Assembly (NCBI GenBank): GCA_002697475.1
Contig: NZVW01000178.1
Location: 1-36,694 of the forward strand
Length of the DNA stretch: 36,694 bases
Reading direction: 5' to 3'
DNA from: Aquimarina sp.
GTDB taxonomy: Bacteria; Bacteroidota; Bacteroidia; Flavobacteriales; Flavobacteriaceae
The position numbers were made by a program, and so were the translations under genes. The notes beneath the pieces are model-generated. The model was not told the DNA's origin and searched no databases. It worked only from the letters and a program-made list of their open reading frames with translations. Below are positions 2,086-36,625 of the stretch, piece by piece (position 1 is the first letter of the stretch; every line of letters begins with the position of its first letter).

Positions 2086-2598
2086 TTAATTGTTCGTTAA
2101 TTTCGATTTCAAATAACTTAACCCATTATTTAAAACTGTCTCTCTATAGCGACTTAATCTTTTCATTGATTCAATATAGCTGCTAATTCTTTTAAAAATA
2201 AGTAATGAGATTGCGCATATGAAAATTGATAGAAATACGTAGGCTAAAAGATCATAATTTACATTGGGGATAAAAACCCAAGAACAATAAAATATTGCAG
2301 ATATAAAAGGAGATATAAGTGCGTAACGCAGATGCACTTGGACTGCTCTATATTTCTGATGGTCTGCAATAGCCGAAATGGATAAAAGTACACCTAATGT
2401 TAAACACAAAATACTGAGGTGAACACCAAATGAATATAAAAAGGATTGAATACTGGTAAACCCGAAGATTTTATTTTCTAATTTTTCAAATTTTACAAAA
2501 GAGTGCAAGAATGGTAAAAGACCACTCAATAAAATCAGCAGATATCCAACCCTTTCTATTAAAAAAAGTTTTTCAATTTTATTTTTGTGTAATGCATT
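2086..2598 (-). CDS. Four-TM hypothetical membrane protein, 5' end uncertain (track start at 2748)
   Basis: Hydrophobic segments VGYLLILLSGLLPFL, SFLYSFGVHLSILCLTLGVLLSISAIA, ALISPFISAIFYCSWVFIP, LLAYVFLSIFICAISLLIF. The only in-frame ATG (2748) lies inside the lipoprotein gene. Confidence 0.55.
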   Translation of the reverse strand, partial: NALHKNKIEKLFLIERVGYLLILLSGLLPFLHSFVKFEKLENKIFGFTSIQSFLYSFGVHLSILCLTLGVLLSISAIADHQKYRAVQVHLRYALISPFISAIFYCSWVFIPNVNYDLLAYVFLSIFICAISLLIFKRISSYIESMKRLSRYRETVLNNGLSYLKSKLTNN

Positions 2599-2824
2599 AA
2601 TTTCCGCCTTGACCTCCTGGTGGTTCAACGTTTTCTTTATCGATTTTTTCAAAGAATCCTTCTCCCGTGGTTGATCCGCTCTTGTCCCCTTGTCCTCCTG
2701 GTGGTTCGACGTTTTCTTTGTCAATTCCAAGTTGAATTTCTGTTTCATTACTTAAATCTGGTTTTTCACAACTGCTTAGAATCAAAATAAAGCCTACAGC
2801 TAAAGGATAAATAAAATTTTTCAT
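2597..2824 (-). CDS. Small secreted lipoprotein with duplicated IDKENVEPPGGQG motif
   Basis: Start at MKNFIYPLAVGFILILSSCEKP (lipobox LSSC); two copies of IDKENVEPPGGQG in the mature part. Confidence 0.7.
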   Translation of the reverse strand: MKNFIYPLAVGFILILSSCEKPDLSNETEIQLGIDKENVEPPGGQGDKSGSTTGEGFFEKIDKENVEPPGGQGGN

Positions 2825-2907
2825 TTTTAATAATCTAATATGGTTAATTATTAAAAATACCAATTAATGTCCACTTAGATTATTGTTTTAGAAAAGAAAT
2901 TATTTCC

Positions 2908-3050
2908 TAAACATATTGCTTTAATTATTGACAATCGGGGTAAAGTCAGTTAAATTAGTTACTTAAGCAAAGTAAACAAATATCTTTAAATTTCAATTAC
3001 GGTATAACCTCGTATTTTTTTCTAAACATAAAGTGATTTTTCTAAACATG
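2908..3050. promoter_or_regulatory. TAAACATA repeat cluster, candidate additional repressor sites
   Basis: TAAACATAT at 2908, TAAACATA at 3023 and TAAACATG at 3043; the last two lie exactly 20 bp apart in the same TTTTTCTAAACAT context. Confidence 0.35.
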
Positions 3051-3133: not shown

Positions 3134-4123
3134 TCAACCCACTTTAAAAGCTGTAAAAAATAAACTCTGATTACTCCCCACAGTCCAATAAGGAAGTAGA
3201 CTTTCACTATCACTCGGAGAATCTAAAAACCATTGTCTCAGAAATAGTATGTTTCTGTCAAAATCCTGAGGATCAACCTCTGATAACGTCATTAAAGTTC
3301 GTACTGACGAGAAGTTATAATTCAATTTGTAAAACTTAGAGGTTTCAAAAGAAACTGTACCACCAATCTCCTGAGTCCATCGCCTATACCTTGAGCATCC
3401 ACCGTACATTTGATTTGAAGTACCGTTAATAATTAATAATTGTGATTCCGCTTCAAATAACGGGACTGGACCCAGATTTTGAACATTAATAGTATTACTA
3501 CCCATACCAAGTAACCCAGTACCATCTGTTTCCTCCAGGGTAAAGACTACACTGAAAGAAAGATCATCACATCGTTTCCAACGAAATCCACTAAACTTTA
3601 TAGCGCCTTCAAACTCTTCAATGCTGCTTGTGGCTTGCAAACTTCTAGCACTATCCTGTGAAACTGACACTCCTGTAGTCATTTCCAATCCCAAATCCAG
3701 TATCGGGGTCGTTCTTAAATCAATCCATTGTGGGTTTACGACGACTATCCCTTCGTTTCCAGTAAGTCCTGAGTTCAACTCTACATTATTCACGACTACA
3801 GTAAACCTTCCTTCAGCTACTCCAGAACTTACCACAGCTTCAATACGCCCGGGATGTATAAAGTTTACACGACCAATACGAGGATAGAATCCAGATTTAG
3901 TCACATCATTACCATTCTGGTCTTTGAGTGTAATAGTTACATCAGGAGTAAAATGATATCCTTTGATTTCTATCCTTCGAGAGGTATTGGTTGGCATTCT
4001 TCCTCTGCAGACCTCTGAGATAAATGGAGCTAATCCTTGTCCTGGTGTATTGTTTTCAGCAGTTGTAGTACTGGTAGCATTTCCTCCTCTGATAAAACGC
4101 TGTGTTCGTATGGTTCTCAGAGG
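3134..4123 (-). CDS. IPT/TIG-like beta-rich protein; open frame continues upstream of the annotated ATG (3997) to an in-frame TAG
   Basis: ...APFISEVCRGRMPTNTSRRIEIKGYHFTPDVTITLKDQNGNDV resembles an IPT/TIG domain start; the frame has no stop back to the TAG at 4126..4124. Confidence 0.6.
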   Translation of the reverse strand, partial: PLRTIRTQRFIRGGNATSTTTAENNTPGQGLAPFISEVCRGRMPTNTSRRIEIKGYHFTPDVTITLKDQNGNDVTKSGFYPRIGRVNFIHPGRIEAVVSSGVAEGRFTVVVNNVELNSGLTGNEGIVVVNPQWIDLRTTPILDLGLEMTTGVSVSQDSARSLQATSSIEEFEGAIKFSGFRWKRCDDLSFSVVFTLEETDGTGLLGMGSNTINVQNLGPVPLFEAESQLLIINGTSNQMYGGCSRYRRWTQEIGGTVSFETSKFYKLNYNFSSVRTLMTLSEVDPQDFDRNILFLRQWFLDSPSDSESLLPYWTVGSNQSLFFTAFKVG

Positions 4124-4681
4124 CTATCCTAGTTGTGCTGTTTTGTAAAATTGAATACGCAATACCGGTGTTGCTTTTTCCTGAATACCCACGACCTTAA
4201 AATTACGCAAGTTCTTTGCTCCTACAAGTTCAAAGATATCCTGATTGCCTAATCCAAATCCTGAAATACGAGAAGGGGAAGCTCCGTTCTCTTTGAACCG
4301 TACTACGGCAGAAGAATCGGTTTGTAGTAATTGTACCACACCATCAGCACTAATCAATCTTTCTTTTGTTACAGATGCCGATGCTATTATGGATTCGGAT
4401 TCGTCCGGATCTGTATCGTTATCTTCATCTGTTCTACCTTGTTCTACCATAATCGTTGCAGAGACTGCTCCTTCAGGAACTTCAAGAGACACTACTTCTC
4501 CAAAAGGCACAGCAACATCCTGATACCCGTTTTGATCCTGATCTATAGGAACAAGTCCTACTTCCTTGGCATTGATCAGTACCAACTCTTCCAAATAATT
4601 GAGAATGGTTGCCGTATTGTGTCGCTGCGGATAGACCTGCTTTTGTATTCTGTCTCTTAGCATAACTAGCTTTTTATACAA
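4124..4681 (-). CDS. Beta-rich putative structural protein, 185 aa
   Basis: MYKKLVMLRDRIQKQVYPQRHNTATILNYLEEL... with an acidic linker, then ISGFGLGNQDIFELVGAKNLRNFKVVGI; ends in TAG, in frame with the next ORF. Confidence 0.7.
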   Translation of the reverse strand: MYKKLVMLRDRIQKQVYPQRHNTATILNYLEELVLINAKEVGLVPIDQDQNGYQDVAVPFGEVVSLEVPEGAVSATIMVEQGRTDEDNDTDPDESESIIASASVTKERLISADGVVQLLQTDSSAVVRFKENGASPSRISGFGLGNQDIFELVGAKNLRNFKVVGIQEKATPVLRIQFYKTAQLG

Positions 4682-5210
4682 ATGGATTAATAGGTGGTGT
4701 TGTCCCTGAAGGATAACCCCATGCTACATATTGTTTCTTGGTTTCATCAGTATCCAAGTGCACAAAGGTTTTTCCGACACCAATCCGTTTAAAACCAACC
4801 TGCTTTGCTGCCCATACAATTTTATTTCTGATGGCTGTGGTAGGTGCTTTAATATCTACTGCCTTACAAATGGGTATTTTATGGGAGGAATTAGATACAC
4901 CTCCTACCTTAGTATTCCAATAGGAAGACCTTGCTCCGGAGTTTATCATCTCAAAGATTGGGAGTCGGGTAACCTTAGCTAACTGATGCAGCTTTTTCAA
5001 TAATTCCCTGTCCATACATTTGCCTGATCCTTTCTGGTCAGGGCTATCAAACCTGGACAGGTCTATTTTAATTTTCTTTTTGTGACGAGCCATTCCTATA
5101 ACTCCGATAACAACCAGTGCCGTTATACCCATTCCTAATCCTATGTGCCACTTCTTATTTCCCACTGCACTTACACTGCTGTTTCCCTTTTCGTTTTTCG
5201 CTCCATTCAT
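4674..5210 (-). CDS. Membrane-anchored M15-type peptidase-like protein
   Basis: N-terminal TM (GLGMGITALVVIGVIGMA), then GARSSYWNTKVGGVSNSSHKIPICKAVDIKAP...FVHLDTD, matching the SxH...D...HxD layout of M15 peptidases. Confidence 0.7.
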   Translation of the reverse strand: MNGAKNEKGNSSVSAVGNKKWHIGLGMGITALVVIGVIGMARHKKKIKIDLSRFDSPDQKGSGKCMDRELLKKLHQLAKVTRLPIFEMINSGARSSYWNTKVGGVSNSSHKIPICKAVDIKAPTTAIRNKIVWAAKQVGFKRIGVGKTFVHLDTDETKKQYVAWGYPSGTTPPINPFV

Positions 5211-5617: not shown

Positions 5618-6238
5618 CTACGTTTTACTATTCTTATATACGGCTATAACTATCAGAAGTATGCTAATGCCTACTACACTGATCGGGAATAGCAGCTTTG
5701 GTTTCCTTTTATGTAATCCTTTGGCGACAATAATCTTCTCGATCTCACGCATAATGCGTTTTATTTTATCCGCATAATCAGGATCTGTTGCATAGCCCGC
5801 CTTTGCCACCTCTTCTGCAAATCGATACGGGTTTTGTCTGTGCTGGAATGCATTGCCATACCTGCTGTTTTTTAGGAGCAATCCCGCCCAATCCATAAAG
5901 GAAAAGAAGGGGTTAGGGTATGCCCGAAATACATCCTTGATCTTATACTTCCACTTTCCGCTACTTAGCTGTACCGGATATCCCGGATATACAAACGGAA
6001 AGTGCCGACTCGGCACAGAGGAGTATTCGGTTGTAGTTATCAGTTGACTGTGACCTTGCCATCCTCCGTAGTTCTTTCCTGATCCTTTTTTTACCCCGAA
6101 CATCATATGGCCTTTTACCGATTTGCCCCAGCCGGATTCCAAGGCACTTTGCGCCAAAGCAAACAAAACAGGTATCCCGGAACGCTCAGCCGCTTTTTGG
6201 GCAAATGGAAAATAGGTTATGACAAACTGTTCTTTCAT
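5618..6238 (-). CDS. Glucosaminidase/FlgJ-like muramidase with C-terminal TM
   Basis: VLFALAQSALESGWGKSVKGHMMFGVKKGSGKNYGGWQG...YATDPDYADKIKRIM is glucosaminidase-like; C-terminal TM LLFPISVVGISILLIVIAVY. Confidence 0.85.
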   Translation of the reverse strand: MKEQFVITYFPFAQKAAERSGIPVLFALAQSALESGWGKSVKGHMMFGVKKGSGKNYGGWQGHSQLITTTEYSSVPSRHFPFVYPGYPVQLSSGKWKYKIKDVFRAYPNPFFSFMDWAGLLLKNSRYGNAFQHRQNPYRFAEEVAKAGYATDPDYADKIKRIMREIEKIIVAKGLHKRKPKLLFPISVVGISILLIVIAVYKNSKT

Positions 6239-6250: not shown

Positions 6251-7042
6251 CTAAGGTTGCGGGGAATCAAATACAGGTGTCTCCGGAAATTCAACAGGCA
6301 TTTTAGCGATATATGACGGAAAGTTGAGTACCAGCTCATCTGTATCCGAGGTCAGTTCTCCTCGTATATTTACCACGCCTAATCCGCTTAATCTGCAAAA
6401 AAAAGGGTTGTTCTCTGTACTGAGCGCAGTCCAGGAGATAAACCCACTTACCCCTTCAGGTACGGGTAATTTCAACACCGTACCCGAAGTACCATTCGGT
6501 CCAAAGACTCCTGCGCCTCCTACCTTTCTTAACCGTATATCTGAACATACGATGAGATTCCCATTAACGATTAGATACTTATTTTGTGCGTTGGCATAGA
6601 ACACACTATTCAGGTCAATCTGTTCGTCTGCAATGGATCGGACTTCCGAATTATTACTGCTGATCCCTGCGGGCAAAATCCCTGTCAATACCTGAAAACA
6701 CGCTCCGTCAAATACGAGTGTATACACCACATTTGTCTTGAGATCGCCATTATCAATGGCAGTCAACGTATCTCCATTGAATCTCTTTATCGGTACTGCT
6801 CCCTGTCCGTCTATATCCAATGTAGCTGTAGCCGTATTGCCCTGATGAAAACGTATATGCAAGGGCAATCCTGCTCTGTAGGTTTTAGTCAAAGAAGGTT
6901 CTAACCTTAATTCGTAACTATTATCTTCTTTCGAAGTTGTCACACCATAACCTCCTAAACTTTGCTCTAAAGGAAAATTACCATCCCCTGCGATATCCGT
7001 AATTCTTAGTTTCACATCTGACTGATATCCTGATAAACTCAT
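6251..7042 (-). CDS. Putative virion appendage/fibre-like beta protein, 263 aa
   Basis: RLEPSLTKTYRAGLPLHIRFHQGNTATATLDIDGQGAVPIKRFNGDTLTAIDNGDLKTNVVYTLVFDGACFQVL resembles repeats in phage tail-fibre/appendage proteins. Confidence 0.6.
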   Translation of the reverse strand: MSLSGYQSDVKLRITDIAGDGNFPLEQSLGGYGVTTSKEDNSYELRLEPSLTKTYRAGLPLHIRFHQGNTATATLDIDGQGAVPIKRFNGDTLTAIDNGDLKTNVVYTLVFDGACFQVLTGILPAGISSNNSEVRSIADEQIDLNSVFYANAQNKYLIVNGNLIVCSDIRLRKVGGAGVFGPNGTSGTVLKLPVPEGVSGFISWTALSTENNPFFCRLSGLGVVNIRGELTSDTDELVLNFPSYIAKMPVEFPETPVFDSPQP

Positions 7043-7049: not shown

Positions 7050-7469
7050 TTATTTAATGATGACTACTACGCCTAAAACTATTAAACTGGTACTTAACAG
7101 CACTTTATGCCACTTACCACGTCTGAGCTTTTTATCTCTTTGCCGTATTTCCTTTTCCAAAAGCCCTATACTCTGATTATTGTTATGAACTATTGTGGTA
7201 TAATGATCAAGCTGTTCCGACTGAAAAGCAATGATCTGATCCTTTTGTGCGAGCAGTTGCTGAAATTTCCCTACCTGATGTGATAGCGCAGTAACCAGTG
7301 AGTCATTAAATTTTCCAAATTCCAATAATCCGGCGATCTCTTTGGACTGTTCCATAGTAAAGCAATAGTGTTTTTCACCTTGGATGTGCTGTAGCTTGGG
7401 TTGTAAAGTTTGTGAAATACCAATACAGCTCGTCATCAGTATAACTATCAATATCCTTAACTTTTTCAT
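7050..7469 (-). CDS. Rz-like/u-spanin-like protein: N-terminal signal with possible lipobox, coiled coil, C-terminal TM
   Basis: MKKLRILIVILMTSCIGISQ..., coiled coil, WHKVLLSTSLIVLGVVVIIK. Confidence 0.5.
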   Translation of the reverse strand: MKKLRILIVILMTSCIGISQTLQPKLQHIQGEKHYCFTMEQSKEIAGLLEFGKFNDSLVTALSHQVGKFQQLLAQKDQIIAFQSEQLDHYTTIVHNNNQSIGLLEKEIRQRDKKLRRGKWHKVLLSTSLIVLGVVVIIK

Positions 7470-7734
7470 ATCGCTGCGCTTTTAAGTGTTCTATATACTT
7501 CTCATCACTTTTGATCAATTCACTGAGGCTGTCTGTTCTTTGGATCAACAGTGTTACTTTTTCTTCCAGTACCCCATTATGCTCCAGAAGCGTGCTGTTT
7601 TCTCTTTTCAACTCTTCAATTGCGATGTAGGGTTTGTTATCTTCTAAAGCTTCCTCTGCAGGAATGATCCAAAAAAGTGCAACACCTATGCCCACAATGG
7701 CTATGAGCGGTAGTATCCATCTGTAATGCTTCAT
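7375..7734 (-). CDS. N-terminal TM coiled-coil protein, i-spanin/Rz-like
   Basis: MKHYRWILPLIAIVGIGVALFWIIP plus coiled coil and DIDSYTDDELYWYFTNF; 3' end overlaps the next gene by 95 bp in another frame. Confidence 0.5.
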   Translation of the reverse strand: MKHYRWILPLIAIVGIGVALFWIIPAEEALEDNKPYIAIEELKRENSTLLEHNGVLEEKVTLLIQRTDSLSELIKSDEKYIEHLKAQRYEKVKDIDSYTDDELYWYFTNFTTQATAHPR

Positions 7735-7773: not shown

Positions 7774-8115
7774 TTATAGCAGATCTTCCTGATCGACTTT
7801 TCCCGGTTTTGGTACTATGCGTTCCAGCAGTACTTCCAGTAAAAACTTATGGAATACCGTGGCAAAGAAGAAAGAGATGATCAGTGTCCCTATACCTTTT
7901 ACCTCATAATCCCGGATAAAAAAGATGAGTATGGCATACACCACTCCTATAAGAAGTACCTGATATCTGTTCTTTAGTTGGAGTTCTAATCCTCTTCCTA
8001 TGAATTGCGGTATCTGATAGTATTGTATAACATAGGTGATCAGAATGAACGAGAAGATATAAAACCAATCCAGAGCGTTCATAAAATTTGTAAATTGTGT
8101 AAGTACGATGTCCAT
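7774..8115 (-). CDS. Multi-TM protein, holin-like
   Basis: 113 aa with about 3 TM segments and a charged C-terminus, upstream of the spanin-like pair. Confidence 0.5.
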   Translation of the reverse strand: MDIVLTQFTNFMNALDWFYIFSFILITYVIQYYQIPQFIGRGLELQLKNRYQVLLIGVVYAILIFFIRDYEVKGIGTLIISFFFATVFHKFLLEVLLERIVPKPGKVDQEDLL

Positions 8116-8123: not shown

Positions 8124-8363
8124 TTATTTAAGGTTGTTTTTAATGTGTACTATTTCCTTTTGAACTGCTGCCAATTGCGCATTGGGAAAAGCATTTTTGA
8201 TCAGATTTGCTACAAGTACTATAGCAGCTCCTGAAACCAGTAATCCCATAATGATCTTCAGTAAGGTTTCATTAGTCAGGGTGATGGTCACTTCTGTTTT
8301 TAGTCCGTCCTTATCTACAAGGGCATCCAGAAGAGTATTGATATTGCGTTTCTTATTTTCCAT
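8124..8363 (-). CDS. Small single-TM protein, 79 aa
   Basis: TM segment LLKIIMGLLVSGAAIVLVANLI. Confidence 0.65.
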   Translation of the reverse strand: MENKKRNINTLLDALVDKDGLKTEVTITLTNETLLKIIMGLLVSGAAIVLVANLIKNAFPNAQLAAVQKEIVHIKNNLK

Positions 8364-8368
8364 AACTT

Positions 8369-8803
8369 TTAACCTTTGATAAGTTCGTGAATAGGGATAC
8401 CCATTTGATAATGCTCATAGGTGCTTCTGTTCAGATAGGTCTTTTTAAACCGCTTTCTGACAAGCCTGTCTGTTTGTTCATCATAGATGCCTGTGACGGG
8501 TCCTTTCCATCCGTGATTTCTTAAAAGCCAGATCTGTAAACGTTCTACTTCCTTTCCCTCACTTCCGGGTTGTAATGGCCAGATCGTTGGTGGTTTTTTT
8601 GTTACGGGAGTCTCTTCTTTTTTTTCCTTTTCGCTTTGGGTAGTCTGTTGTGGTGCTGTTGTAGGCGTTACAAAAGGGTCTTCCGTGGTTCCCTGAGTTT
8701 CTGTTTGTGGTTTGGCTTTGCTCTTCTTTATCAGGTAAAGCGTCAGCAGTCCCACACCCAGACCCAATCCTACCATTGTCCATGTTTGTTTTGTCATTTT
8801 CAT
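8369..8803 (-). CDS. N-terminal TM protein with PG_binding_1-like C-terminal domain
   Basis: TWTMVGLGLGVGLLTLYLIKK; WPLQPGSEGKEVERLQIWLLRNHGWKGPVTGIYDEQTDRLVRKRFKKTY. Confidence 0.65.
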   Translation of the reverse strand: MKMTKQTWTMVGLGLGVGLLTLYLIKKSKAKPQTETQGTTEDPFVTPTTAPQQTTQSEKEKKEETPVTKKPPTIWPLQPGSEGKEVERLQIWLLRNHGWKGPVTGIYDEQTDRLVRKRFKKTYLNRSTYEHYQMGIPIHELIKG

Positions 8804-9252
8804 TTGCGTATGGTTTTCATTGCGGTTTTCATTCCTTCTATATCCTTTTTGGCAAAAGAGGTTTTCCCTAAATGGAGTTTTGCTGCTTTATTGGTTTTGT
8901 TGCCAAACATTCCATCTACCCCGTCATTGGCTTTACCGGAACTGCCCAGCTCAGCTTTGTAAATGTTCTTCAGGTAGGCCTGTAGTACTTCCACATCTTT
9001 ATGACACGTACCATAGGATAACGGATAGCTGCGACTACTGCATCTAAAGCGAGAACTTATCGTTACCGGTTTGGTATCTTTTGTAGTTGTAGTGATTTGG
9101 GGATTATCATCTGTGGAGAAAAGGAGCATCTCCTCCTTTCCTTTTCGGTGACGGTAGTACCAGTATCCAACACCAACCAGCACTAGCGTAGTTACGCCAA
9201 TCACCAGCCATAATTGTTGATCTTCTGTCAGTGTATTTTTCGTTGTTTTCAT
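8800..9252 (-). CDS. N-terminal TM protein with divergent PG_binding_1-like domain
   Basis: LWLVIGVTTLVLVGVGYWYY; YPLSYGTCHKDVEVLQAYLKNIYKAELGSSGKANDGVDGMFGNKTNKAAKLHLG. Confidence 0.6.
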   Translation of the reverse strand: MKTTKNTLTEDQQLWLVIGVTTLVLVGVGYWYYRHRKGKEEMLLFSTDDNPQITTTTKDTKPVTISSRFRCSSRSYPLSYGTCHKDVEVLQAYLKNIYKAELGSSGKANDGVDGMFGNKTNKAAKLHLGKTSFAKKDIEGMKTAMKTIRK

Positions 9253-9274
9253 ATGCTATTTTTCTGTTGTTTCG

Positions 9275-9802
9275 CTATGCTACTAATCGGTAATTGGGTA
9301 AGCTGCGTACCTGATCGTAAACCAGTTCCTTCAGCTCACTGTCACTCAGAAAACTTCTGAGGTACTGCCACATATCCCTTCGTCCATATTGGTAATAAAA
9401 GGCTCTGGACAGACTGGCGACCTGCGTTTTATCCTGTAGGCTTTTAAATACCCGTGCTACCGCCTGCTCATCATCATTGAATGTCCCTTTTGCATTGAAT
9501 AACTTTGCTGCAAAATGCTTAGCCACGGATTCCGGTAGTTCTTTAATTTTTTTGCCCCCTAACCAGGTATTCACATCCTTGTTATAGTTCATATCAAAAG
9601 GATTCTTCCAATTGGGTTCTGTAACTGCTGTTGCCGTTCCACCTCCCTGAGCCACGATGACAGGTTTATCTAAAGTTCCTACTCCCATAAATACGTGATC
9701 TTTTTTGTTGTTTTTTCCAAAAAACAGCACATACAGTCCTATCCCAAGTCCTATAGTGCCTGCTCCACCTACTACCCACCACATTGTTTTTGATATTTTC
9801 AT
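9275..9802 (-). CDS. N-terminal TM protein, paralog of the neighbouring 164-aa protein (true start likely 9802)
   Basis: MKISKTMWWVVGGAGTIGLGIGLYVLFF start; domain FNDDEQAVARVFKSLQDKTQVASLSRAFYYQYGRRDMWQYLRSFLSDSELKELVYDQVRSLPNYRL. Confidence 0.7.
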   Translation of the reverse strand: MKISKTMWWVVGGAGTIGLGIGLYVLFFGKNNKKDHVFMGVGTLDKPVIVAQGGGTATAVTEPNWKNPFDMNYNKDVNTWLGGKKIKELPESVAKHFAAKLFNAKGTFNDDEQAVARVFKSLQDKTQVASLSRAFYYQYGRRDMWQYLRSFLSDSELKELVYDQVRSLPNYRLVA

Positions 9803-9821
9803 CCTGTATTTTTCTGTTGTA

Positions 9822-10316
9822 TTAAAGTGTTCTGTATTTCGGTAAGCCGGAGATGATCTTGAGTACCTGTGTGATTTCCTCCTGATCAAAACTGTCTTTC
9901 AACTGGTCTTTAAGTGATACTTTGTAATCTCTTTGATATGCCCTGGCTACCTGAGATACCTGTACCTTGTCTTTTAAACTGCCCAAAAGGGCATACACGC
10001 CTTGTTCATCGTCACCTCCTTTATACCACGGCTTAAAAAACTGATGGATATCCTTTGCCAGTCGTGTGGCTACTGTCTCTTTCAATACAATGACTTTTGA
10101 GGTCACTCCCTGCATCACCCTGTCTTTATAATGCATACTTAAGGCATCTTCTGCATCCAGACCCTGAGTTACCGGATGCAACTGCTTATTGACTGCTGCC
10201 AGTACAGCCTGTGCCAAACGGTCTCTATTGCGCTTTCGCACTAAGATCACCGTTGTGCCTATACAAAGTACGCCCAGTACACCTACTGCTATATATAATC
10301 CTTTAGTACTCTTCAT
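9822..10316 (-). CDS. N-terminal TM protein, paralog of the downstream neighbour
   Basis: LYIAVGVLGVLCIGTTVILV; GGDDEQGVYALLGSLKDKVQVSQVARAYQRDYKVSLKDQLKDSFDQEEITQVLKIISGLPKYRTL. Confidence 0.7.
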   Translation of the reverse strand: MKSTKGLYIAVGVLGVLCIGTTVILVRKRNRDRLAQAVLAAVNKQLHPVTQGLDAEDALSMHYKDRVMQGVTSKVIVLKETVATRLAKDIHQFFKPWYKGGDDEQGVYALLGSLKDKVQVSQVARAYQRDYKVSLKDQLKDSFDQEEITQVLKIISGLPKYRTL

Positions 10317-10331
10317 ATCCTTTTGCCGATG

Positions 10332-10778
10332 TTAGCGCTTTAGTATTTTTCCTGCCTTTCCCACCGGAGTGAACTGTGCCACATCTGCCAGTGTTGCTTT
10401 TTTAGTGGTATTCCATAACACCACACCTATGATCGCCAATACCAGCGCCAGTGTCATCGGCACACCAATGGACAATATTTTGGACAGGTTTTTGCCTAAA
10501 CCCATAAAATTGCTGCCGATCGCTGAGGCATCTGCAATGGCTCTGGTGGCTGCACTAGACACATCAATACGGTTTTTCTTAAGCCAGCTGTTAAATTCCA
10601 CATTGGTAGTACAGCTTGAGGATCCGTTGGTTTTCCAGGTGACCAGCCAGATCGTTCGTGCATTTTGACTACCCAGATGTGTTTGTAAGCTCTTGAAATA
10701 GCCTACCCATAATTCGCAGGGGTCTCCCCGCTCGGGAACTACAAAATGTGTATCGTGTATGTTCAGTGTTATAGGCAT
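10332..10778 (-). CDS. C-terminal TM hypothetical protein, 148 aa
   Basis: TM MTLALVLAIIGVVLW near the C-terminus. Confidence 0.65.
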   Translation of the reverse strand: MPITLNIHDTHFVVPERGDPCELWVGYFKSLQTHLGSQNARTIWLVTWKTNGSSSCTTNVEFNSWLKKNRIDVSSAATRAIADASAIGSNFMGLGKNLSKILSIGVPMTLALVLAIIGVVLWNTTKKATLADVAQFTPVGKAGKILKR

Positions 10779-10783: not shown

Positions 10784-10972
10784 CTACTTTTTTATAATGG
10801 CATTGGATTGTGTACTGGCTTCCCTGGCAGACAATCCCAAATCTTCTAACACTTCCATCAGGTGTCTTTTGATGCTGGCTTCTTTCTTCAGGGCTTCCTG
10901 CTTATCGTAGCGCATATAGATATGCCTGCCAATCAGAATTCCTATAGCCAGGGTGATGATCGTATTTTTCAT
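10784..10972 (-). CDS. Small N-terminal TM protein (62 aa, start reassigned)
   Basis: MKNTIITLAIGILIGRHIYMRY...; ATG overlaps the upstream TGA (ATGA). Confidence 0.65.
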   Translation of the reverse strand: MKNTIITLAIGILIGRHIYMRYDKQEALKKEASIKRHLMEVLEDLGLSAREASTQSNAIIKK

Positions 10973-14432: not shown

Positions 14433-14433
14433 A

Positions 14434-24169: not shown

Positions 24170-24181
24170 GATCCGATCTAT

Positions 24182-25219: not shown

Positions 25220-25253
25220 AATTTCGTTTTTTGATGAATGTTATGTTTAGTGT

Positions 25254-25505: not shown

Positions 25506-25525
25506 ATATATTTCTTTTAGTGGTG

Positions 25526-26158: not shown

Positions 26159-26176
26159 ATCTATATGTTTAAATGG

Positions 26177-28066: not shown

Positions 28067-29031
28067 AAGGTCAACAAACCGTTTCGTCTTTTGTACTCGT
28101 GAATAAATACCTGCTTCATTTCTGCCCCTTTATAGCGGTTCAGAAATTCCTCCAGATTGACCTCTCTTCTGATATGGGCTGCCTTCTCGCGGTTCATTAC
28201 TAAAAAGTAACTCTCCAGGCAGTCTTTTAGGGTTTTTCCATTTCGTACAGGTTTACTTATTTTTTTTGAGGTGTTCGTCACCCCTGTCTGGCGTAACATT
28301 TCCTGAATGTAGATCCGTTGAAAATTAAGCATGGTGCGAAGGGTCATAATATCCTCCATATCACCGGCGGTATTGTCTTTTCCTTCATATTTGAGTATGG
28401 AACTGCGAATAGCGATACAGATATCCACCAGCGGAGGATACACCAGAGAGCGTTCCAGTTTTTCATTGAACCCGATCTCATAAATGCTTCCGCTAAACCG
28501 ATCCAATAAGGAGCTGTCCTGTCTGTTGTTTCCTACATAGGTGCTACTGACCGCTTTTCCGGTGACATTTCCGGTGGCAATACATCCGAAATCGGGATGC
28601 TTAACTACAGGTTCATTTAATCCGTTAAAAATGATAGCTCCTTCTTTAGCACTTTTAGCTAAAGGGTCATTAAGCAGCCCTGCGGTATTGGGATCGAGTT
28701 TGGGCATTTCATCAATGATCAGGATTTTACCATCCCGCCAGGCTTCAATCAATCCGCCCTCTTTATAGCCATACATCGTCTGTCCTCCCTTAATATCGAT
28801 AGGAGAAGTATACTGGTTACAGCTGATGATGATAAATGGCAATTCCTTTTTATCATTCTCCCTGCGTCCAAAATGGGCATAGGCAACTTTTTCCCCGAGG
28901 GTGGTTTTTCCGGTTCCGGCTATACCTTTCAGAAACACGTTGTTTCCAACGCTCAAATCATCTAGAATCTTCATAAAGTTGGGGATCTGATCTATTTCAG
29001 GGATATCTAAGGTTTGTGGGTATGTTCTCAT
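28063..29031 (-). CDS. MoxR/CbbQ-type AAA+ ATPase
   Basis: NVFLKGIAGTGKTTLGEKVAYAHFG, DGKILIIDEMPKLDP, FGCIATGNVTG, LLDRFSGSIYEIGF. Confidence 0.85.
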   Translation of the reverse strand: MRTYPQTLDIPEIDQIPNFMKILDDLSVGNNVFLKGIAGTGKTTLGEKVAYAHFGRRENDKKELPFIIISCNQYTSPIDIKGGQTMYGYKEGGLIEAWRDGKILIIDEMPKLDPNTAGLLNDPLAKSAKEGAIIFNGLNEPVVKHPDFGCIATGNVTGKAVSSTYVGNNRQDSSLLDRFSGSIYEIGFNEKLERSLVYPPLVDICIAIRSSILKYEGKDNTAGDMEDIMTLRTMLNFQRIYIQEMLRQTGVTNTSKKISKPVRNGKTLKDCLESYFLVMNREKAAHIRREVNLEEFLNRYKGAEMKQVFIHEYKRRNGLLTL

Positions 29032-29063: not shown

Positions 29064-32000
29064 TCAGGAAGCCTGGTGCTCATAAGCCAATTGGAGCTTG
29101 TCCAATAGAATAGCCATAGGTTCTATGACCCCAATGGTGTCCTCATAGATGGCTTTACCTAGTTGCTGGGCAGTATAGCGTCCAAATACAAATTCTGTAT
29201 TTCCGTCCTCGTGGGGATGGTTGGTCATAAAATAGCCCAACTGATCTATCGCTTTATAGACAGGCAGCTGTCGGGCCTCACGGATCACCTCTTTGAAATC
29301 TTTGGCGATGGGTGTGCCTTTGATCGCCTGTTGCCATTGCTGATAGGGAACGGCTATGTTTTTAAAGATGGGAATTAGGGAATAGTTGTATTTTTCCTTA
29401 TCCTTTAGTACCCGATCATATTCCACAACGCCATAGGGATACTGCGAATTGGGCTCTTCATATCCGGTAAACCCAAATTGCGGGTTGCTGCCGTTGCCAT
29501 ACGGTCTTCCCAGCTCGTATCGGTATCGTGTAGTACCAATGGCTGTTCTTTCATCCCAGTCGGCTTCATTTTCAATTTCCCAATCTTCAAGCTCTTTTGC
29601 CTGTCCCTGTATTTTTAATCCGAACTCATCGAGTTTCTTTAAAAAAGGGGGTAGATTTTCTTCTGATAGTACTCCTGTCATATCCCCGGCATTCTGAATA
29701 AATTCAGGTAATTCTTCAGCGGTTTGCCCTTCCTGACGCATGATAAGTTTACGCAGCGTAGGATCAAGAGGAAGTTTGTAGTGCTGCTTTTTCTGAATAT
29801 ACACTTCAAAGTAGTGTTTGCCTACCCGCTTGAATTTGATACCATACTGATGATCTTCAAGTACTGCATCAACCTCTAATGCTATAATAGCCTGTAAACC
29901 TTCAGAGATAGGAAGCAGCGCATAATGCTCTTTATCCTTACCGTAATCCCTCGACATCAGAATGCCGTTTTTGATAGTTCCGGCTTTGGTATTGTACTTG
30001 ATCAGCTTGTTATGGGCTCCTATCTCATCAGAAACCGCCAGAATATTTTCAGTAAGGATATAACGTTTCTCTCGTTTGGAAGAAGCTTTTTTGATCAGGT
30101 CATTCCAGTTCGCGGTCACTGCTGCACGCTCTTCTTCCGTTAATTCCCGGCTCTCAGCATAGATACTGGCAAGATAATCACTCCCGTTTTTCAAGTCATA
30201 GGTGATGGATTTACGACCATCGACAACTGCAAAATTAAAGGAGATGTTGGCCAGGGTATAGGGGTTGCTGTTACCTTTTCCTATGCGCACTCCCATAAAG
30301 ATTCCGAAGGAAGCTTCCCGCGTAGATCCGATAAAAGGAACTTTCACCACTTCACCAACCATCCAATACCCTATATATCTTACGATTCTTTTTTGAACAG
30401 CTAACAATTCCTGCTCATAAGTAGCCAGGGCATTTCTTTTTTCATCGATGCGGCTTTGTTGTCGTTCCCGAAGCTTTATAATCTTCGCATTGGCTTCTTC
30501 ATCCTTTCCGCTACCTTCCTTGGGCATATCTGCGAGTTCCTGCTCCATAGTTGCAATCACTTCCATTCGTTTAGCTTTTCGTGTAGCGATCAATGTTGGA
30601 TATTCTGCTTCCAGTTCCAGTAAGAGTACATCTTTTGCCCGTTGCGGGGTAATACCTTCTAATTGTTTGGCAATACGCTGATCTACTTCTCCCTTGGTAA
30701 ATGGACGTTGTAGGTTATTGACAATGGTATGTTCACGAACAGTATCCTTACCGAAAGGGGTATGCCCTCCGTTACCACGGTATTGCAAAAAGCGTTTTTT
30801 TACTTCTGCATCCAGTGGTAAAAACTCGGTTTCCAGATCATATGTACCTTGTTGCTTTTCTATGGTGATCTGATGATTGTAGCGTTGTACAAGATCATTA
30901 AACAGTACATCCTGTTCTTCTACAAATAATAAGCCCGCGCGCCCTGTGACCTGACGTATGGCGCCAACTTTACTTTTGGCCCGTTCGAGTGTACCATTGG
31001 CCTTTCTGGTATAGGTCGGGTTTCCCAGTTTTTCAGCCATATCCTTATTTTCCTCAACCCATTGCCAGGCAACTTCATCCCCATACTTATTAAAGAGATC
31101 AGGACTTTGAAAGGTGGTATCACTGGTCTTCTGTGATCCTGTAGTATTGGCATCCAGTGATTTGAGTTTTCCTTTCAGCATGGTCATCAAACGGACTTCC
31201 ATAGGAATATCACTGGCGATATAACGGTATCCGGGTAATACTACCTGTCCGGTTCTGTTGATACGTCCGATTTTTTGGATTTCAATGTTGATATCGAGTT
31301 CAAACTGGTGGCTGATCATCATCCGCTGGCGTTGATCCTTAAAATCTTTGGAAGCGTGGGCAGAAGCCCCGGTACTTCCGCTTTGATTGATGAGCAATAC
31401 ATCATAATCCCCTTGATTAAACAGTCGAAAGGCTTTTTCAGTATCACTTCTAAAGGAACTCACCACTGCTTCATCTCCCTCAAAATAGAGTTTCTGGTTT
31501 CTCCCGGTCACTTCAGCTACTTTAAAATGTAATCCTTGATGCCCGCCAAGTCCCTTGGGCTTTTGTTCCTTTTCTATGAGGTGGATCAACTGGTCAATAG
31601 GACTGACCGTCAGTCCTGAACTTTCAGAGAGCATTTCCTTTTTGATGCGATGATATTCGTCAATTCCACTTTGAGGCAGGGAACTGAGTGGTACACGTTC
31701 CTTGCTTTTCTTGCCGGAGATATCCGTATAGTTATACCCAAATACACTATCCAGTCCCTTGACCAGGGTTTTGCTAAAATCCAGTTCTTCCATGGCCACC
31801 ACATCACCCGTAGCCAGTTTCATATCTTTAAGAAACGTACCCATGGTAGATTTAAAGGCAATGACCACTTTTTTATCCTCCCGTAACAATTCCAGGGTAT
31901 GTTTAGCCACTTCTTCAACTTTCAGGGCAAATAATAGCTGGTCTACAATATTAAATACCCTGGAAAAGTATGGAGCTTGCTTTACTCCAAGCCCTTTGGG

Positions 32001-33317
32001 TTTTTGCTTGATGGATTCATCTACTTTTTTAGCTTCTTCATGAATGTCCCTGAGCCTGTCATTGATGTATTCCTGCTCAAATTGTACGACATCATTCATC
32101 AGGGTAATGATGCGGTTGACACGTTCACGGTTCAGGCTTCGTGCAGGCTCCTGATCCAGAATGACATATTCGATTTCAATACCTTCATTAGAGCGTTGAC
32201 GTCTGATCAGCTGTCCGCTTTCCGAAAGATTGGAGGCGACAATCTCCTGTAGGGCTAAGCCTCCTTTGGTCATGGCAATAACCAGATTTTCATCACTTAA
32301 TCCGGTTTCCAGTATCGCCGTCTTTTTACCGTAAAAAGGCATGACCTCGGGATATTTGGCAAAAGTGGCACTTAAAAAACAGCAGGCTCTGGTGGCAGGC
32401 AATACCTCACGCATCCAATGTCCGATTTTGGAATCGTATCCCCCCGCCATATGGGATTCATCAAGGATGAATACCACCTCTTTACGGGTATGGCTTCCCT
32501 CTACACCCTGTGCACACAACTGTTGTAACCAACTTCGCTTGAAAGGGTGGGCGCTTTGAATTTGAGAATAGGTGGTAAAGATGACATTATATTCCCCAGG
32601 CAGGTAATCGAAACTATGGGTAAGGGTTACCTCCGGTACAGTTTCAGGGTCGGGTAAGGGAATCCCTGATTGTTTATGCCACTGGATAGATTCGGGACTT
32701 TCAGTGGGATAGGTATGCTGTTCGGTGATGAGTTCCATCTGTGCTTTGGGCGATAATGGGCTGAACATCACACTACCATCCTCATCTTTAACGGCTGCCT
32801 GATCTGTATTCAAAATAAAAGGCTTGATATCTTCAAAACCAATGGCTTTCAAATCCCTGTAGATATCACTGAACAGGTTCGCGGAGCGCGTGAAAAAGAC
32901 GGGTAACAATCCGTTCATAATGGCATGGCGTAGTACTGCTGCTGCCTGTCTGCCTTTTCCAATCCCTGTCTGATCTGCTATGATAATGCCCTGTCGGCGC
33001 TCAAACTGTTTTAAATACAAGGCTATTCCATCTACTTGCTCTGCAGAAAAGGCTTTCCATAAGGTTGCCGTGGAAATGTATTTTAACGCATTGCGTACGT
33101 AATTATCAATATTCCCCTTTTCCTTGACAATCCGGTTTAACGATTTCTGTACCTCAAATGCCATGTTTTTAGGGATCAGGGTATGCATCCTGTAGGTAGC
33201 ACCGGATTTCGGGATATAGGGAACCAGTGCACTCTGGGAAGCTGCCATCCTGGCAACTTCACTGGCTTCCTGCGTAAATTCCTCTTGCTGTGTTATCAGT
33301 TCTAAGTTTTCTTCCAT
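29064..33317 (-). CDS. Strawberry-notch-type SF2 helicase (DarB C-terminal-like)
   Basis: GIIIADQTGIGKGRQAAAVLRHAI, VVFILDESHMAGGYDSKIGHWM, INQSGSTGASAHASKDF, INIEIQKIGRINRTGQV. Confidence 0.85.
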   Translation of the reverse strand: MEENLELITQQEEFTQEASEVARMAASQSALVPYIPKSGATYRMHTLIPKNMAFEVQKSLNRIVKEKGNIDNYVRNALKYISTATLWKAFSAEQVDGIALYLKQFERRQGIIIADQTGIGKGRQAAAVLRHAIMNGLLPVFFTRSANLFSDIYRDLKAIGFEDIKPFILNTDQAAVKDEDGSVMFSPLSPKAQMELITEQHTYPTESPESIQWHKQSGIPLPDPETVPEVTLTHSFDYLPGEYNVIFTTYSQIQSAHPFKRSWLQQLCAQGVEGSHTRKEVVFILDESHMAGGYDSKIGHWMREVLPATRACCFLSATFAKYPEVMPFYGKKTAILETGLSDENLVIAMTKGGLALQEIVASNLSESGQLIRRQRSNEGIEIEYVILDQEPARSLNRERVNRIITLMNDVVQFEQEYINDRLRDIHEEAKKVDESIKQKPKGLGVKQAPYFSRVFNIVDQLLFALKVEEVAKHTLELLREDKKVVIAFKSTMGTFLKDMKLATGDVVAMEELDFSKTLVKGLDSVFGYNYTDISGKKSKERVPLSSLPQSGIDEYHRIKKEMLSESSGLTVSPIDQLIHLIEKEQKPKGLGGHQGLHFKVAEVTGRNQKLYFEGDEAVVSSFRSDTEKAFRLFNQGDYDVLLINQSGSTGASAHASKDFKDQRQRMMISHQFELDINIEIQKIGRINRTGQVVLPGYRYIASDIPMEVRLMTMLKGKLKSLDANTTGSQKTSDTTFQSPDLFNKYGDEVAWQWVEENKDMAEKLGNPTYTRKANGTLERAKSKVGAIRQVTGRAGLLFVEEQDVLFNDLVQRYNHQITIEKQQGTYDLETEFLPLDAEVKKRFLQYRGNGGHTPFGKDTVREHTIVNNLQRPFTKGEVDQRIAKQLEGITPQRAKDVLLLELEAEYPTLIATRKAKRMEVIATMEQELADMPKEGSGKDEEANAKIIKLRERQQSRIDEKRNALATYEQELLAVQKRIVRYIGYWMVGEVVKVPFIGSTREASFGIFMGVRIGKGNSNPYTLANISFNFAVVDGRKSITYDLKNGSDYLASIYAESRELTEEERAAVTANWNDLIKKASSKREKRYILTENILAVSDEIGAHNKLIKYNTKAGTIKNGILMSRDYGKDKEHYALLPISEGLQAIIALEVDAVLEDHQYGIKFKRVGKHYFEVYIQKKQHYKLPLDPTLRKLIMRQEGQTAEELPEFIQNAGDMTGVLSEENLPPFLKKLDEFGLKIQGQAKELEDWEIENEADWDERTAIGTTRYRYELGRPYGNGSNPQFGFTGYEEPNSQYPYGVVEYDRVLKDKEKYNYSLIPIFKNIAVPYQQWQQAIKGTPIAKDFKEVIREARQLPVYKAIDQLGYFMTNHPHEDGNTEFVFGRYTAQQLGKAIYEDTIGVIEPMAILLDKLQLAYEHQAS

Positions 33318-33342
33318 ACTCGTTCCGTGTTTGGTTTCCGCC

Positions 33343-33786
33343 CTACCTGGTCTGGTGGAGCAATGCTTCTAAATAGGATCTTAGGGTAGTTTCAGCATAC
33401 AATTGTGTAGCTTCTTCTTTCGACAGGCCTCCGTACATCCTGGACATTTCAGGTAGCGAGGTATCTATGGCATCCCAGCTTTCCTGTAGGGACCATAGTG
33501 CCTGATGCATCCTGTCGGTCTGGAATAAAAAGGCAGCCATCTCATTGATCATTTCTCCTCCCATGTATACGATCTCCAGATATTCCTCTATGAGCATTAC
33601 AGGGTTTTCGCCTTCGGCAATCGCACGTTCTATGAGTTCGTGTATCTGGATATAGATTCCTGCTTCGTGATCATTGTAGCCTTCAAAAGGCACGGGATTA
33701 CTAACCATATACAATACGGCATCCTCCCTTGTTTTCATCAATTGATTGTTATAAAATATCATCGGTCTCGATTTTAAGTTTTTCAA
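33343..33786 (-). CDS. Hypothetical protein, 147 aa (possible start MIFYNN at 33762)
   Basis: Between methylase and helicase genes; start overlaps the methylase 3' end. Confidence 0.6.
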   Translation of the reverse strand: MKNLKSRPMIFYNNQLMKTREDAVLYMVSNPVPFEGYNDHEAGIYIQIHELIERAIAEGENPVMLIEEYLEIVYMGGEMINEMAAFLFQTDRMHQALWSLQESWDAIDTSLPEMSRMYGGLSKEEATQLYAETTLRSYLEALLHQTR

Positions 33787-36625
33787 TAAGTAGTGCTAAA
33801 GGGGTTTTAATACTGGATTTTATCCGCTCCCATAAGGCTTCAAAAGTGTCTACCACTACATCCAGGCTACCCGCCTGTTTACGGGTCGGTGCTATGGATG
33901 TATTCGAGGGGTTGTGCTTTCTTCCGCTGATAAGCACAAGCATTGTTTTCGGAGTAGCACCTTGTTTGTTGTACAGGGTAAATCCATTTAAATTGATCAC
34001 ATCATCCACACGATAATGCATGTACAGCCAATTGAAAAAGGGGCGGGCTTTGGCAATAAACCCCTGATCATCAAAATAGAGATGTCCCATTAAAATCAGG
34101 GCTGCCTTGCCGCTATCCTTTAGCGTATGCAACGCCAATCCGGACATCACATGCTCCAGACGCAATCGGTTTTTATCCAACCTTCTATACTTGTTAAAGT
34201 ATTTTCGTACGATTCGTTTTTTATCAAAGTCATCGGCATCCCAGGTAGCAAAGGGTGGATTGGTAACCATCACATCAAAGGATTGGGTCAGGTCTTCCGG
34301 AAAGGGTTCAGCAGCATTGAAATGGGTAATGGTATGAAACCCCTGCTTTTCCAGTGAACTTCTTCGGTTTTTATCAATTTCGTTGACGTGAGTTTTCGCG
34401 GGATCTGCTCCCAAGACCAACAAACCATTTCCGGCACTGGGTTCAAAAATCCGTTGCGCACCAACCATCCCGGTATATTCGGCGATCATCGCTCCAATAG
34501 GACAGGGGGTCGAATATTGCTTGTAGAGTTCTTTACTGCTATCGGAATAGTCGTAACTCGGCTGTACCTCATTCCAGTAGCGGATCATAGCCTTTAACCG
34601 ATTTTCAAAGGCAACGGGTTCCTGATAGTAAAATTTATACCACAGTAGCCAACTGAGTTCCACAGCTTCCCAAAGCATTCCTAAATTGGGGACATTAGCG
34701 AGGTCTTTGATCTCTTCTACTTTTTTCCGACTCAGACGTCTTGCCTGCATGTAGTGATCGTGCATGATAGCAATCACCTTATCCATATAATCGGGATCAC
34801 CATCCCCGTTTGAATTTTCCTTTTCTTTAGGGAAATAGTTATCGATCAGGATTCGGACAGTCTTTCCGATGGGCATATCTGGACTGGTTTCAAGCAGCGT
34901 ACCTTTAAAGAGTGATTTCATCATATAGTTCCGAAACCCGGACAGCTTGTCTTCTGACAAGGTATGACCTTGTGTTTGTACTCTTTCCAGGATCGCTCCA
35001 AAAAGCTCCTGCCTGAATACCTGATCTTCCTCTTCCACTAATGTGGTCAGGTCTTCTGCTTCCCTTTCCAAAGCAGCAATACGTTCCAAACGGTGCATCT
35101 TACTCTGTTTGCTTTGCACGTCTTCTTTCCCGTCCAATGCTGTAACCTCTTTTTCCAGAATGGCAATCCATTGCTGAAACTCCTTTTCAAGTTTTGTATC
35201 CAGCTTTAGCTGGTTGTATCCCTGGCGTACGGCTAGTTCACTGAGGGCTATGTTTTTGGTAAACGCCTGTTTTCCGGTATAGGCAACCGTAAAGCCCTGC
35301 GCTTTGAACTGCCTGCGGATACGTTCGGATTCTTCCGGAGCAATAGCTTGTAGAATGGAGGTAGCGCTAACTTCTGTTGCTGACTTTACTTCAATAGCCA
35401 TAGGCTTCTTATCGGCATTGGGAATCGTTGCAGATAATTTCTCAGAACTGACCTCTAAGGCCTGTGTTGGTGATCCGTTTTGAACGGCTTTGAAGGGTAG
35501 GTTGGGTTTGTCATCCTTCGTTTGCCCTTTTGGTGTATCCTTTACCTTTTCAGGGGCGATATTGTTTCGATTGCTTTTCGCACGTGTAGGGGTTTGCTTT
35601 TTTGTTTTAGGTGCGTTTTTCTTTTCTGATCCCTTTTCATTTTCTCTCGTTACGTCTTCCTTTTCCTTTGCTTCTTGTTCTATGACAACCCCAAACTCCT
35701 TTGCAAAGGTTACTGTGGCGTGAAGCGCCTTTTCTAATGCCCGGTTTTTCTTGTCCTGATCGGAAATGATATAATCCCTGGTGGCAAGCTGCGATTTAAT
35801 TCTGGAAATAACTTGACGAAAAGCGATTTGTAAAGCTTCTTTTTTGGTGGAGTAGCTTTCACCTGTTTGGCTTACCGGAGAAGAAGTACTGCTATGATCC
35901 CCAAAGTTTTTAAGGATACTTGTGCCAAAACGGTACTGGTCGTTTTCATCTTTGACCACAGCAATCGTTACCTCATAATTCACCTGCTTTGGAATAGGAA
36001 CTTCCAGTTGTTCATAGCGATCTCCGGAATTCTCTTGCGTATATACACCCCTGCTGTTGGTCAGAGATTGAATAGTAGTTTCCGATTTGGATAATGGCGA
36101 GATTTCTTTTGTAGGTGTCTTAACCACTTCCTCCTGTGTAGGAATCACCAGGTTTGCTGCCAGTAAATCCCTGGCTTTCTTTTTTTGCATCCGGGGTGCT
36201 GCTTCCACGGATACGAACCGGTCTTTATACACTCGCACTCCGTATTGCTGTGCTATCGCTTCGGCTATTCTTTTATACTGATCAAAAACTACAAAGTTCT
36301 TCTTGCCAACCGATTTTCCTTTTCTGTAGGATATCGTTACGTAACTGAATTTGTTGTGAATGATATTGGATTCGTGAGGGATATGAGAAGGGCGCACCAT
36401 AATATCCCTATAGTCAAGATCTTTTTCCAAAACCTCTTTAAGGTCATTGGCAAAGAAATTATAGGCATCGTGATGAGGAGCGAAATACAATCTGGGTTTT
36501 TTAGGATGATACCTGTACCCTAATCGCTCCAGATAGTTGGAAAGGTCTTCATCCGGAGTTTTTACGAAATGTAATTCCCAACGATTGAGTCCTTTGTTAT
36601 GTCGTATGTCAAGATGTTTTTCCAT
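33749..36625 (-). CDS. Large protein with C-terminal N6-adenine DNA methyltransferase domain (DarB N-terminal-like)
   Basis: QRIFEPSAGNGLLVLGADPAKTHVNEID (SAM-binding) and SFDVMVTNPPFATW (catalytic NPPF). Confidence 0.85.
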   Translation of the reverse strand: MEKHLDIRHNKGLNRWELHFVKTPDEDLSNYLERLGYRYHPKKPRLYFAPHHDAYNFFANDLKEVLEKDLDYRDIMVRPSHIPHESNIIHNKFSYVTISYRKGKSVGKKNFVVFDQYKRIAEAIAQQYGVRVYKDRFVSVEAAPRMQKKKARDLLAANLVIPTQEEVVKTPTKEISPLSKSETTIQSLTNSRGVYTQENSGDRYEQLEVPIPKQVNYEVTIAVVKDENDQYRFGTSILKNFGDHSSTSSPVSQTGESYSTKKEALQIAFRQVISRIKSQLATRDYIISDQDKKNRALEKALHATVTFAKEFGVVIEQEAKEKEDVTRENEKGSEKKNAPKTKKQTPTRAKSNRNNIAPEKVKDTPKGQTKDDKPNLPFKAVQNGSPTQALEVSSEKLSATIPNADKKPMAIEVKSATEVSATSILQAIAPEESERIRRQFKAQGFTVAYTGKQAFTKNIALSELAVRQGYNQLKLDTKLEKEFQQWIAILEKEVTALDGKEDVQSKQSKMHRLERIAALEREAEDLTTLVEEEDQVFRQELFGAILERVQTQGHTLSEDKLSGFRNYMMKSLFKGTLLETSPDMPIGKTVRILIDNYFPKEKENSNGDGDPDYMDKVIAIMHDHYMQARRLSRKKVEEIKDLANVPNLGMLWEAVELSWLLWYKFYYQEPVAFENRLKAMIRYWNEVQPSYDYSDSSKELYKQYSTPCPIGAMIAEYTGMVGAQRIFEPSAGNGLLVLGADPAKTHVNEIDKNRRSSLEKQGFHTITHFNAAEPFPEDLTQSFDVMVTNPPFATWDADDFDKKRIVRKYFNKYRRLDKNRLRLEHVMSGLALHTLKDSGKAALILMGHLYFDDQGFIAKARPFFNWLYMHYRVDDVINLNGFTLYNKQGATPKTMLVLISGRKHNPSNTSIAPTRKQAGSLDVVVDTFEALWERIKSSIKTPLALLIEKLKIETDDIL

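Follow-up and report, generated by a model that had tools for sequence, protein, structure and literature searches.

We analyzed a 36,694-bp stretch of DNA from Aquimarina sp. (contig NZVW01000178.1; hereafter the window), which comprises the entire contig, has a G+C content of 41% and stems from a genome that is 55% complete. About 44 open reading frames (ORFs), all on the minus strand, tile the region from 36625 to 2086, in line with an original prediction which, from the letters of this DNA alone, had read 2086-36625 as a single minus-strand gene series of a candidate large tailless membrane virus. The window is cut at both ends and represents an incomplete copy of a conserved mobile element (hereafter the element); a circular-contig signature was found neither in the window ends nor in other short contigs. 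No relative has a counterpart of the minus-strand genes within 1-2748, nor of the CI-like gene at 1337-1765 (plus strand), which the original prediction had counted as a repressor within the minus-strand series. Five genes of the element are the following:

g24, 11953..13680, minus strand: g31-like domain with an inserted beta-propeller, candidate spike/turret or second capsid protein (hhalign; AlphaFold2 (AF2) model)
g31, 17409..18293, minus strand: candidate major capsid (or penton) protein (present in 66/66 loci; ratio of nonsynonymous to synonymous substitution rates (dN/dS), AF2, Foldseek, tail charges)
g35, 21809..22744, minus strand: predicted P9/A32-like genome-packaging ATPase (profile comparisons)
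g46, 29064..33317, minus strand: Strawberry-notch-type helicase, DarB-like (Helicase_C_4 2.7e-27, AAA_34 4e-18, weak DarA_C)
g48, 33749..36625, minus strand: Eco57I/N6-type DNA methyltransferase (Pfam scan)

Scanning the g31 alignment against 85,488 species genomes revealed relatives at 66 loci in at least 54 assemblies, with hosts including Aquimarina, Kordia, Dokdonia, Nonlabens, Winogradskyella, Flavivirga, Fulvivirga, Splendidivirga and groundwater Bacteroidetes. The block g11-g31 is syntenic throughout these phylum-wide loci, so that the collinear loci which the original prediction proposed to seek elsewhere in Bacteroidota were indeed found. Ten Aquimarina copies have the gene order g08-g31 and g35-g48 in common, as far as their contigs extend. 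Multiple copies per genome occur, with three in Kordia algicida. Counting the source genome itself, g31 was present in 8/301 genomes of the host family and the g35 ATPase in 9/38 related genomes, all of the same genus and one of them holding a fragment. Across the tested element genes, dN/dS values of 0.05-0.2 indicate purifying selection. None of g35, g31 and g25 matched any of 50,697 catalogued phage records; among 72,556 plasmids, g31 gave no match and g35 a single weak, unrelated match to TniB. No earlier description of the element was found in the literature, for which search coverage was incomplete. The source genome itself holds a second, partial copy on another contig (G000 C107, L032:1-9465), with homologues of g35-g37 and g39-g44 at 30-74% identity.

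The borders of the element were deduced from its relatives, which extend 8-17 kb past g48 and there carry, besides a recombinase, genes for a replication-initiator-like helix-turn-helix (HTH) protein, a MerR-like regulator and a CI-like protein. The recombinase is of the serine type at the equivalent position in four copies (G011a, G007a, G109 and G114), adjoined by tRNA-Arg in G011a, G109 and G114; the insertion sites of G011a and G114 lie in the same YqeY/ftsZ neighbourhood of different genera. The two complete copies span ~48.5 kb (G109, 1677173 to about 1725600) and 48.3 kb (G114, 67546-115837); in both, gene content was used to judge the distal border. Two further copies (G011b and G002) have a tyrosine integrase adjoining tRNA-Met instead, and in G011 a 43-bp piece of this tRNA's 3' half is repeated 82.4 kb away, representing a duplication of the attachment (att) site. 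Long att repeats were not found for the serine-recombinase copies, as is expected for serine recombinases, and in an empty-site comparison at tRNA-Arg 2/3 species compared hold serine recombinases of their own. At the sequence level, the ~48.5-kb unit thus has a recombinase gene at one end, beside tRNA-Arg or tRNA-Met, and the integrase and att duplication of relatives are those predicted for a temperate integrating virus. The lack of an integrase in the window is an artefact of the contig, which is truncated at both ends. On contig C1 of G011, copies of the tRNA-Met 3' half occur at 1021882, 1036041, 1118452, 1187972 and 1192928 (L157, L019 and L158), two of them inside intact tRNAs; this array apparently reflects tandem integrations at one attachment site.

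The P-loop ATPase noted by the original prediction is g35, which has weak Pfam matches to Zot and AAA. We compared 12 window families with the proteins of SSIP-1 (Salisaeta icosahedral phage 1), P23-77, PRD1, PM2, SH1 and STIV in 1,032 profile comparisons, among which g35 against PM2 P9 ranked first (probability 89%, 134 columns); the second best for the g35 family was PRD1 P9 (probability 32%). When five packaging ATPases were combined into one alignment, g35 matched it with a probability of 92% (E-value (E) 6.6e-7) across a region that includes both Walker motifs (A and B) and the Gln motif, whereas the control AAA+ ATPase g45 and SSIP-1 gp40 aligned at Walker A alone, over 20 columns. Conserved motifs of g35 are GETGVGKT, VLDD.D and R..G.D...THQ, and the protein has no transmembrane (TM) segment. 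Altogether, the comparisons lend moderate support to g35 as a P9/A32-type packaging ATPase of Varidnaviria, which would be the sole homology tie of the element to this realm.

The candidate capsid protein g31 experiences strong purifying selection, with a dN/dS of about 0.06 and a constraint equal to that of the ATPase. Structures were predicted for two proteins, g31 and g24. The g31 model shows a single beta-barrel of jelly-roll type with nine strands in one domain (residues 82-219), and the protein has a strongly acidic N-terminal and an Arg-rich C-terminal tail (mean charges -31 and +23). Foldseek matched it to many single jelly-roll capsids (cucumber mosaic virus (CMV), satellite tobacco mosaic virus (STMV), cowpea mosaic virus (CPMV)), the PRD1 spike P5, nucleoplasmin barrels and other beta-sandwich proteins. 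The beta-propeller protein at 11953-13680, already recognized in the original prediction, proved to be related to g31 (hhalign probability 95%, E 3e-8): in the g24 model (predicted local distance difference test (pLDDT) 82.7), g31-type strands follow in the same order, with the propeller inserted after the second strand and before the helix. Only propellers were among the matches listed in its fold search. With a dN/dS of about 0.19, g24 evolves faster than g31. Neither protein has a sequence match to any known capsid protein, and PDB sequence searches were empty or at chance level. A homology to the SSIP-1 capsid was rejected, with no match in sequence or profile comparisons.

The region g08-g30 (4674-17375) combines membrane proteins, cell-wall-active enzymes and lysis candidates:

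g08, 4674..5210, minus strand: M15-type peptidase with N-terminal TM segment (PF08291 2.1e-9)
g10, 5618..6238, minus strand: glucosaminidase with C-terminal TM segment (PF01832 1.5e-26)
g12/g13, 7050..7734, minus strand: overlapping spanin-like pair (sequence and TM prediction; function inferred)
g14, 7774..8115, minus strand: two-TM protein, holin candidate (TM pattern; function inferred)
g15-g20, 8124..10778, minus strand: small single-TM proteins, g16/g17 with peptidoglycan-binding-like domains (TM prediction, synteny)
g22, 10969..11478, minus strand: N-acetylmuramoyl-L-alanine amidase-like, candidate endolysin (PHROG amidase 2.7e-19)
g23, 11519..11956, minus strand: CHAP endopeptidase-like (CHAP 6e-7; Cys48/His101 conserved)
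g25, 13677..14432, minus strand: beta-rich candidate virion metallopeptidase (conserved HExxH, H181 E182 H185; 57 loci; no Pfam match)
g26-g30, 14434..17375, minus strand: basic or coiled-coil proteins with C-terminal TM segment (TM segment in 97-100% of g26 and g28-g30 homologues; synteny)

By one hydropathy rule, 17/23 of these proteins have a TM segment, compared with 13/23 in PRD1 and 1/20 among the head-tail genes of phage lambda, and the segments are retained across homologues, which agrees with the many small membrane proteins of the original prediction. This array fits a putative internal membrane. The anticipated cell-wall-active domains were likewise recovered as M15 peptidase, glucosaminidase, CHAP, amidase (PHROG) and two weak PG_binding_1 matches. 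Within the region, g30 carries a Zn-ribbon-like Cys motif, g27 is a 75-aa beta protein, and g13 has an N-terminal TM segment and a coiled coil. The g12 product (7050-7469) has a lipobox-like N-terminus and a C-terminal TM segment, the layout of a one-piece spanin.

Profile scans of ~40 window proteins (Pfam, PHROGs, PADLOC) gave no convincing match to terminase, portal, HK97-type shell, tail-tube, sheath or tape-measure proteins, and roughly 30 window proteins scanned gave no Pfam match to relaxase, coupling protein or type IV secretion system (T4SS) components. The original prediction had noted the same absence of tail, packaging and conjugation genes; of the two observations it had named as refuting it, tail genes and a gene order shared with known conjugative or secretion loci, neither was made. 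There are exceptions at the level of domains: g11 (6251-7042) has a stretch in common with a tail protein and g23 (11519-11956) with a baseplate lysozyme, while the coiled coil of 15922-16650 gave chance-level matches, including a tape-measure family (E 0.06). Furthermore, g35 weakly matches phrog_2666 "terminase large subunit" (7e-5), a label that in public records also covers PRD1 P9, PM2 P9 and P23-77 ORF13. Judged by these profiles, the element lacks the terminase, portal, HK97-type shell and tail of Caudoviricetes and, in the window proteins scanned, the genes of a conjugative element.

Taken together, it is likely that the window holds about three quarters of a provirus from a family of temperate, tailless, probably internal-membrane double-stranded DNA (dsDNA) viruses of Bacteroidota. 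Sequence comparison shows that the conserved TM-protein array, the two related beta-barrel-domain proteins and the P9-type ATPase travel together. After induction, g31 would assemble into an icosahedral shell, with g24 as a propeller-bearing spike or second shell protein; the TM proteins would sit in a lipid membrane underneath, and g35 would pump the genome in via one vertex. At entry, the membrane-anchored muralytic proteins g08, g10, g16 and g17 would aid DNA passage across the cell wall and the g46/g48 pair would protect incoming DNA from restriction, whereas exit would involve g14 as holin, g22/g23 as endolysins and g12/g13 as spanins.

Several points weigh against this interpretation. 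The virion, the membrane and the capsid roles are all predictions from genes and models. For g31, the confidence of the model is modest (pLDDT 62, predicted template modelling score (pTM) 0.45), and its Foldseek matches lie at E 1.9e-3 or above, with no PDB match below E 1e-3. Apart from the ATPase, the structural genes have no sequence match to PRD1, PM2, P23-77, SH1, STIV or SSIP-1. A hydrophobic segment occurs in 41% of g24 homologues; for this reason, a role as membrane-anchored surface spike is suggested rather than one in the shell, although g24 as a second shell protein is possible. Finally, some copies are far larger, such as G011b with 82 kb between att sites, which may be too large to package, or may have been swollen by insertions.

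With respect to the shell, two alternatives have to be considered. The element could encode an undetected double-jelly-roll shell protein, with g31 only as penton and g24 as spike, like P31 and P5 of PRD1. In PRD1, P31 and the base of P5 have a common domain, as do g31 and g24; P5 is among the Foldseek matches of g31, and the ATPase is nearest to P9 of PM2, itself a double-jelly-roll virus. We nevertheless consider this unlikely, as no further conserved soluble protein of the module is sufficiently large and beta-rich; the one remaining candidate would be g25, in which the HExxH motif of a protease is conserved. Membership of the PRD1/PM2/STIV double-jelly-roll group is unsupported, because no capsid sequence match was found and g31 is modelled as a single barrel. 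It is also rather improbable that g31, instead of building the shell, is a nucleoplasmin-type core protein of the virus that condenses DNA or acts like a histone chaperone, as its charged tails (mean -31 and +23) and its Foldseek matches to nucleoplasmin cores could imply: the same domain bears the propeller in g24, and no clear alternative shell protein would be left.

A non-viral nature of the element appears less plausible still. A domesticated particle or trans-envelope device retained by the host, such as a gene-transfer agent or secretion machine, would account for the strong purifying selection, the wall-active and membrane proteins and the defence or toxin-like cargo nearby; however, recombinases, att duplication, differing insertion sites, several copies per genome, variable cargo and the minority of genomes occupied make this alternative, which the original prediction had kept open, very improbable. 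An integrative plasmid, conjugative element or phage satellite using the ATPase for DNA transfer would agree with the integrase, the replication-initiator-like HTH gene and the variable cargo, but hardly with the lysis gene set, the large TM-protein set, the absence of g31 from 72,556 plasmids and the absence of relaxase, coupling protein and T4SS matches in the window proteins scanned; we regard it as extremely improbable. Identity as an inovirus was rejected by inference from genome size, lysis genes and an ATPase devoid of a TM segment.

The original prediction of a large tailless membrane virus with a DarB-like module is mostly supported, as regards the size (~48.5 kb when complete), the P9/A32-like ATPase, the TM proteins, the muralytic enzymes and the DarB-like pair, but not as regards the PRD1/PM2/STIV double-jelly-roll group. 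Since neither a double-jelly-roll shell nor SSIP-1-like virion proteins were found, we place the provirus in no named family, only among tailless membrane viruses as a kind. The chances appear even that it represents an undescribed lineage of family or order rank: temperate tailless membrane viruses with ~50-kb genomes and a novel family of single-barrel capsid proteins, one paralogue having a whole beta-propeller inserted in its barrel, that would be common as proviruses of marine Bacteroidota. If true, P9-type packaging would reach genomes of a larger size than before, and it would become apparent that prophage finders based on sequence may overlook a provirus frequent in marine Bacteroidota. 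Very few isolates of large membrane-containing tailless phages are known. As the family occurs, with apparently intact integrases, in culturable, sequenced strains (Aquimarina, Kordia, Dokdonia), this virus type is directly testable by induction. The g31/g24 pair could also serve as a model for a jelly-roll-like capsid domain gaining a propeller.

The remaining features of the window are as follows:

g06-g07, 3134..4681, minus strand: variable beta-rich fibre-like proteins at the distal end (patchy conservation)
g11, 6251..7042, minus strand: fibre-like, domain in common with phage tail proteins (phrog_4900 3.6e-6)
g34, 20966..21784, minus strand: 3'-phosphoadenosine-5'-phosphosulfate (PAPS)-reductase-like, homologue of SSIP-1 gp25 (39% over 278 aa, 1e-65; phrog_424 2.3e-34)
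g36-g44, 22748..28066, minus strand: conserved early/middle block, including DnaA-C-like DNA-binding g37 and DUF7192 protein g44 (profile matches and synteny)
g45, 28063..29031, minus strand: MoxR/CobS-type AAA+ ATPase (AAA_5 4.1e-11; phrog_249 1.7e-23)

The g34 product also matches the PADLOC SspD model (1.7e-17), and may therefore have a role in DNA phosphorothioation, or in evading it, instead of one in sulfur assimilation. Variable cargo occupies two positions, the g31-g35 interval and the g06 end; its identities were assigned by eye, not by profile. Between g31 and g35, G018 (C5, L037/L038 region) carries a UvrD-like helicase and type III restriction-like genes, whereas type I restriction-modification genes lie beside the distal end in G008 (C34, L030:579-7825). 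Wadjet/Jet-like SMC defence genes adjoin the distal end in G114 (C3:60736-66795, L063 region) and are perhaps cargo of the element. In G011, one set of YD-repeat/toxin-like and small lipoprotein genes ends one copy (L016, G011a flank) and lies within another (L018, G011b cargo), and the G011b edge has two nearly identical ORFs for a reverse transcriptase/maturase, which apparently represent group II introns (L070:1477-5968).

Compared with known systems, PM2 (Corticoviridae) and PRD1 (Tectiviridae) of the Bamfordvirae resemble the element in their P9-type packaging ATPase, many small membrane proteins and membrane-associated muralytic enzymes, but have 10-15 kb genomes and a double-jelly-roll shell, and no capsid homology was found. 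P23-77 and SH1 (Helvetiavirae) share with it a possible pair of related single-barrel proteins and, in P23-77, a PAPS-reductase gene; however, their genomes measure 17-31 kb, the two barrel-domain proteins of the element match neither VP16/VP17 nor VP4/VP7 in sequence and lack a confident match in fold, and we know of no propeller-bearing capsid gene in these viruses. Compared by description, the FLiP group (Finnlakeviridae) and PhiCjT23 of Flavobacterium are, like the proposed virus, membrane-containing and infect flavobacteria, and PhiCjT23 is temperate (PMC9719478, PMC8682789); unlike the element, FLiP has a 9-kb single-stranded DNA genome and a double-jelly-roll shell (PMC6260650, PMC8682789). 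The DarB-like module of the original prediction was located as the Helicase_C_4/AAA_34 and Eco57I pair at 29064-36625 and is a predicted anti-restriction module; it combines a Strawberry-notch helicase and an N6-methylase like the DarB-type polyvalent proteins of phage P1, with the functions split over two genes in a tailless element. The nearest precedent in size, host side and kinds of genes is SSIP-1, with a circular 43.8-kb dsDNA genome, a T = 49 particle and an internal membrane (PMC6260650); this genome size was overlooked when the original prediction gave 10-20 kb as usual for such viruses. SSIP-1 is described as having hardly any similarity to GenBank sequences (PMC6356626). Its structural proteins have no detectable homology to those of the element; its ATPase matches packaging ATPases solely at Walker A, and the PAPS-reductase-like gene (39% identity) is the sole shared gene. 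Nonetheless, both have a host on the Bacteroidota/Rhodothermota side, an integrase, a large methyltransferase and a lysozyme-like protein, and the tailless icosahedral particle with internal membrane known for SSIP-1 is the kind which the genes of the element suggest.

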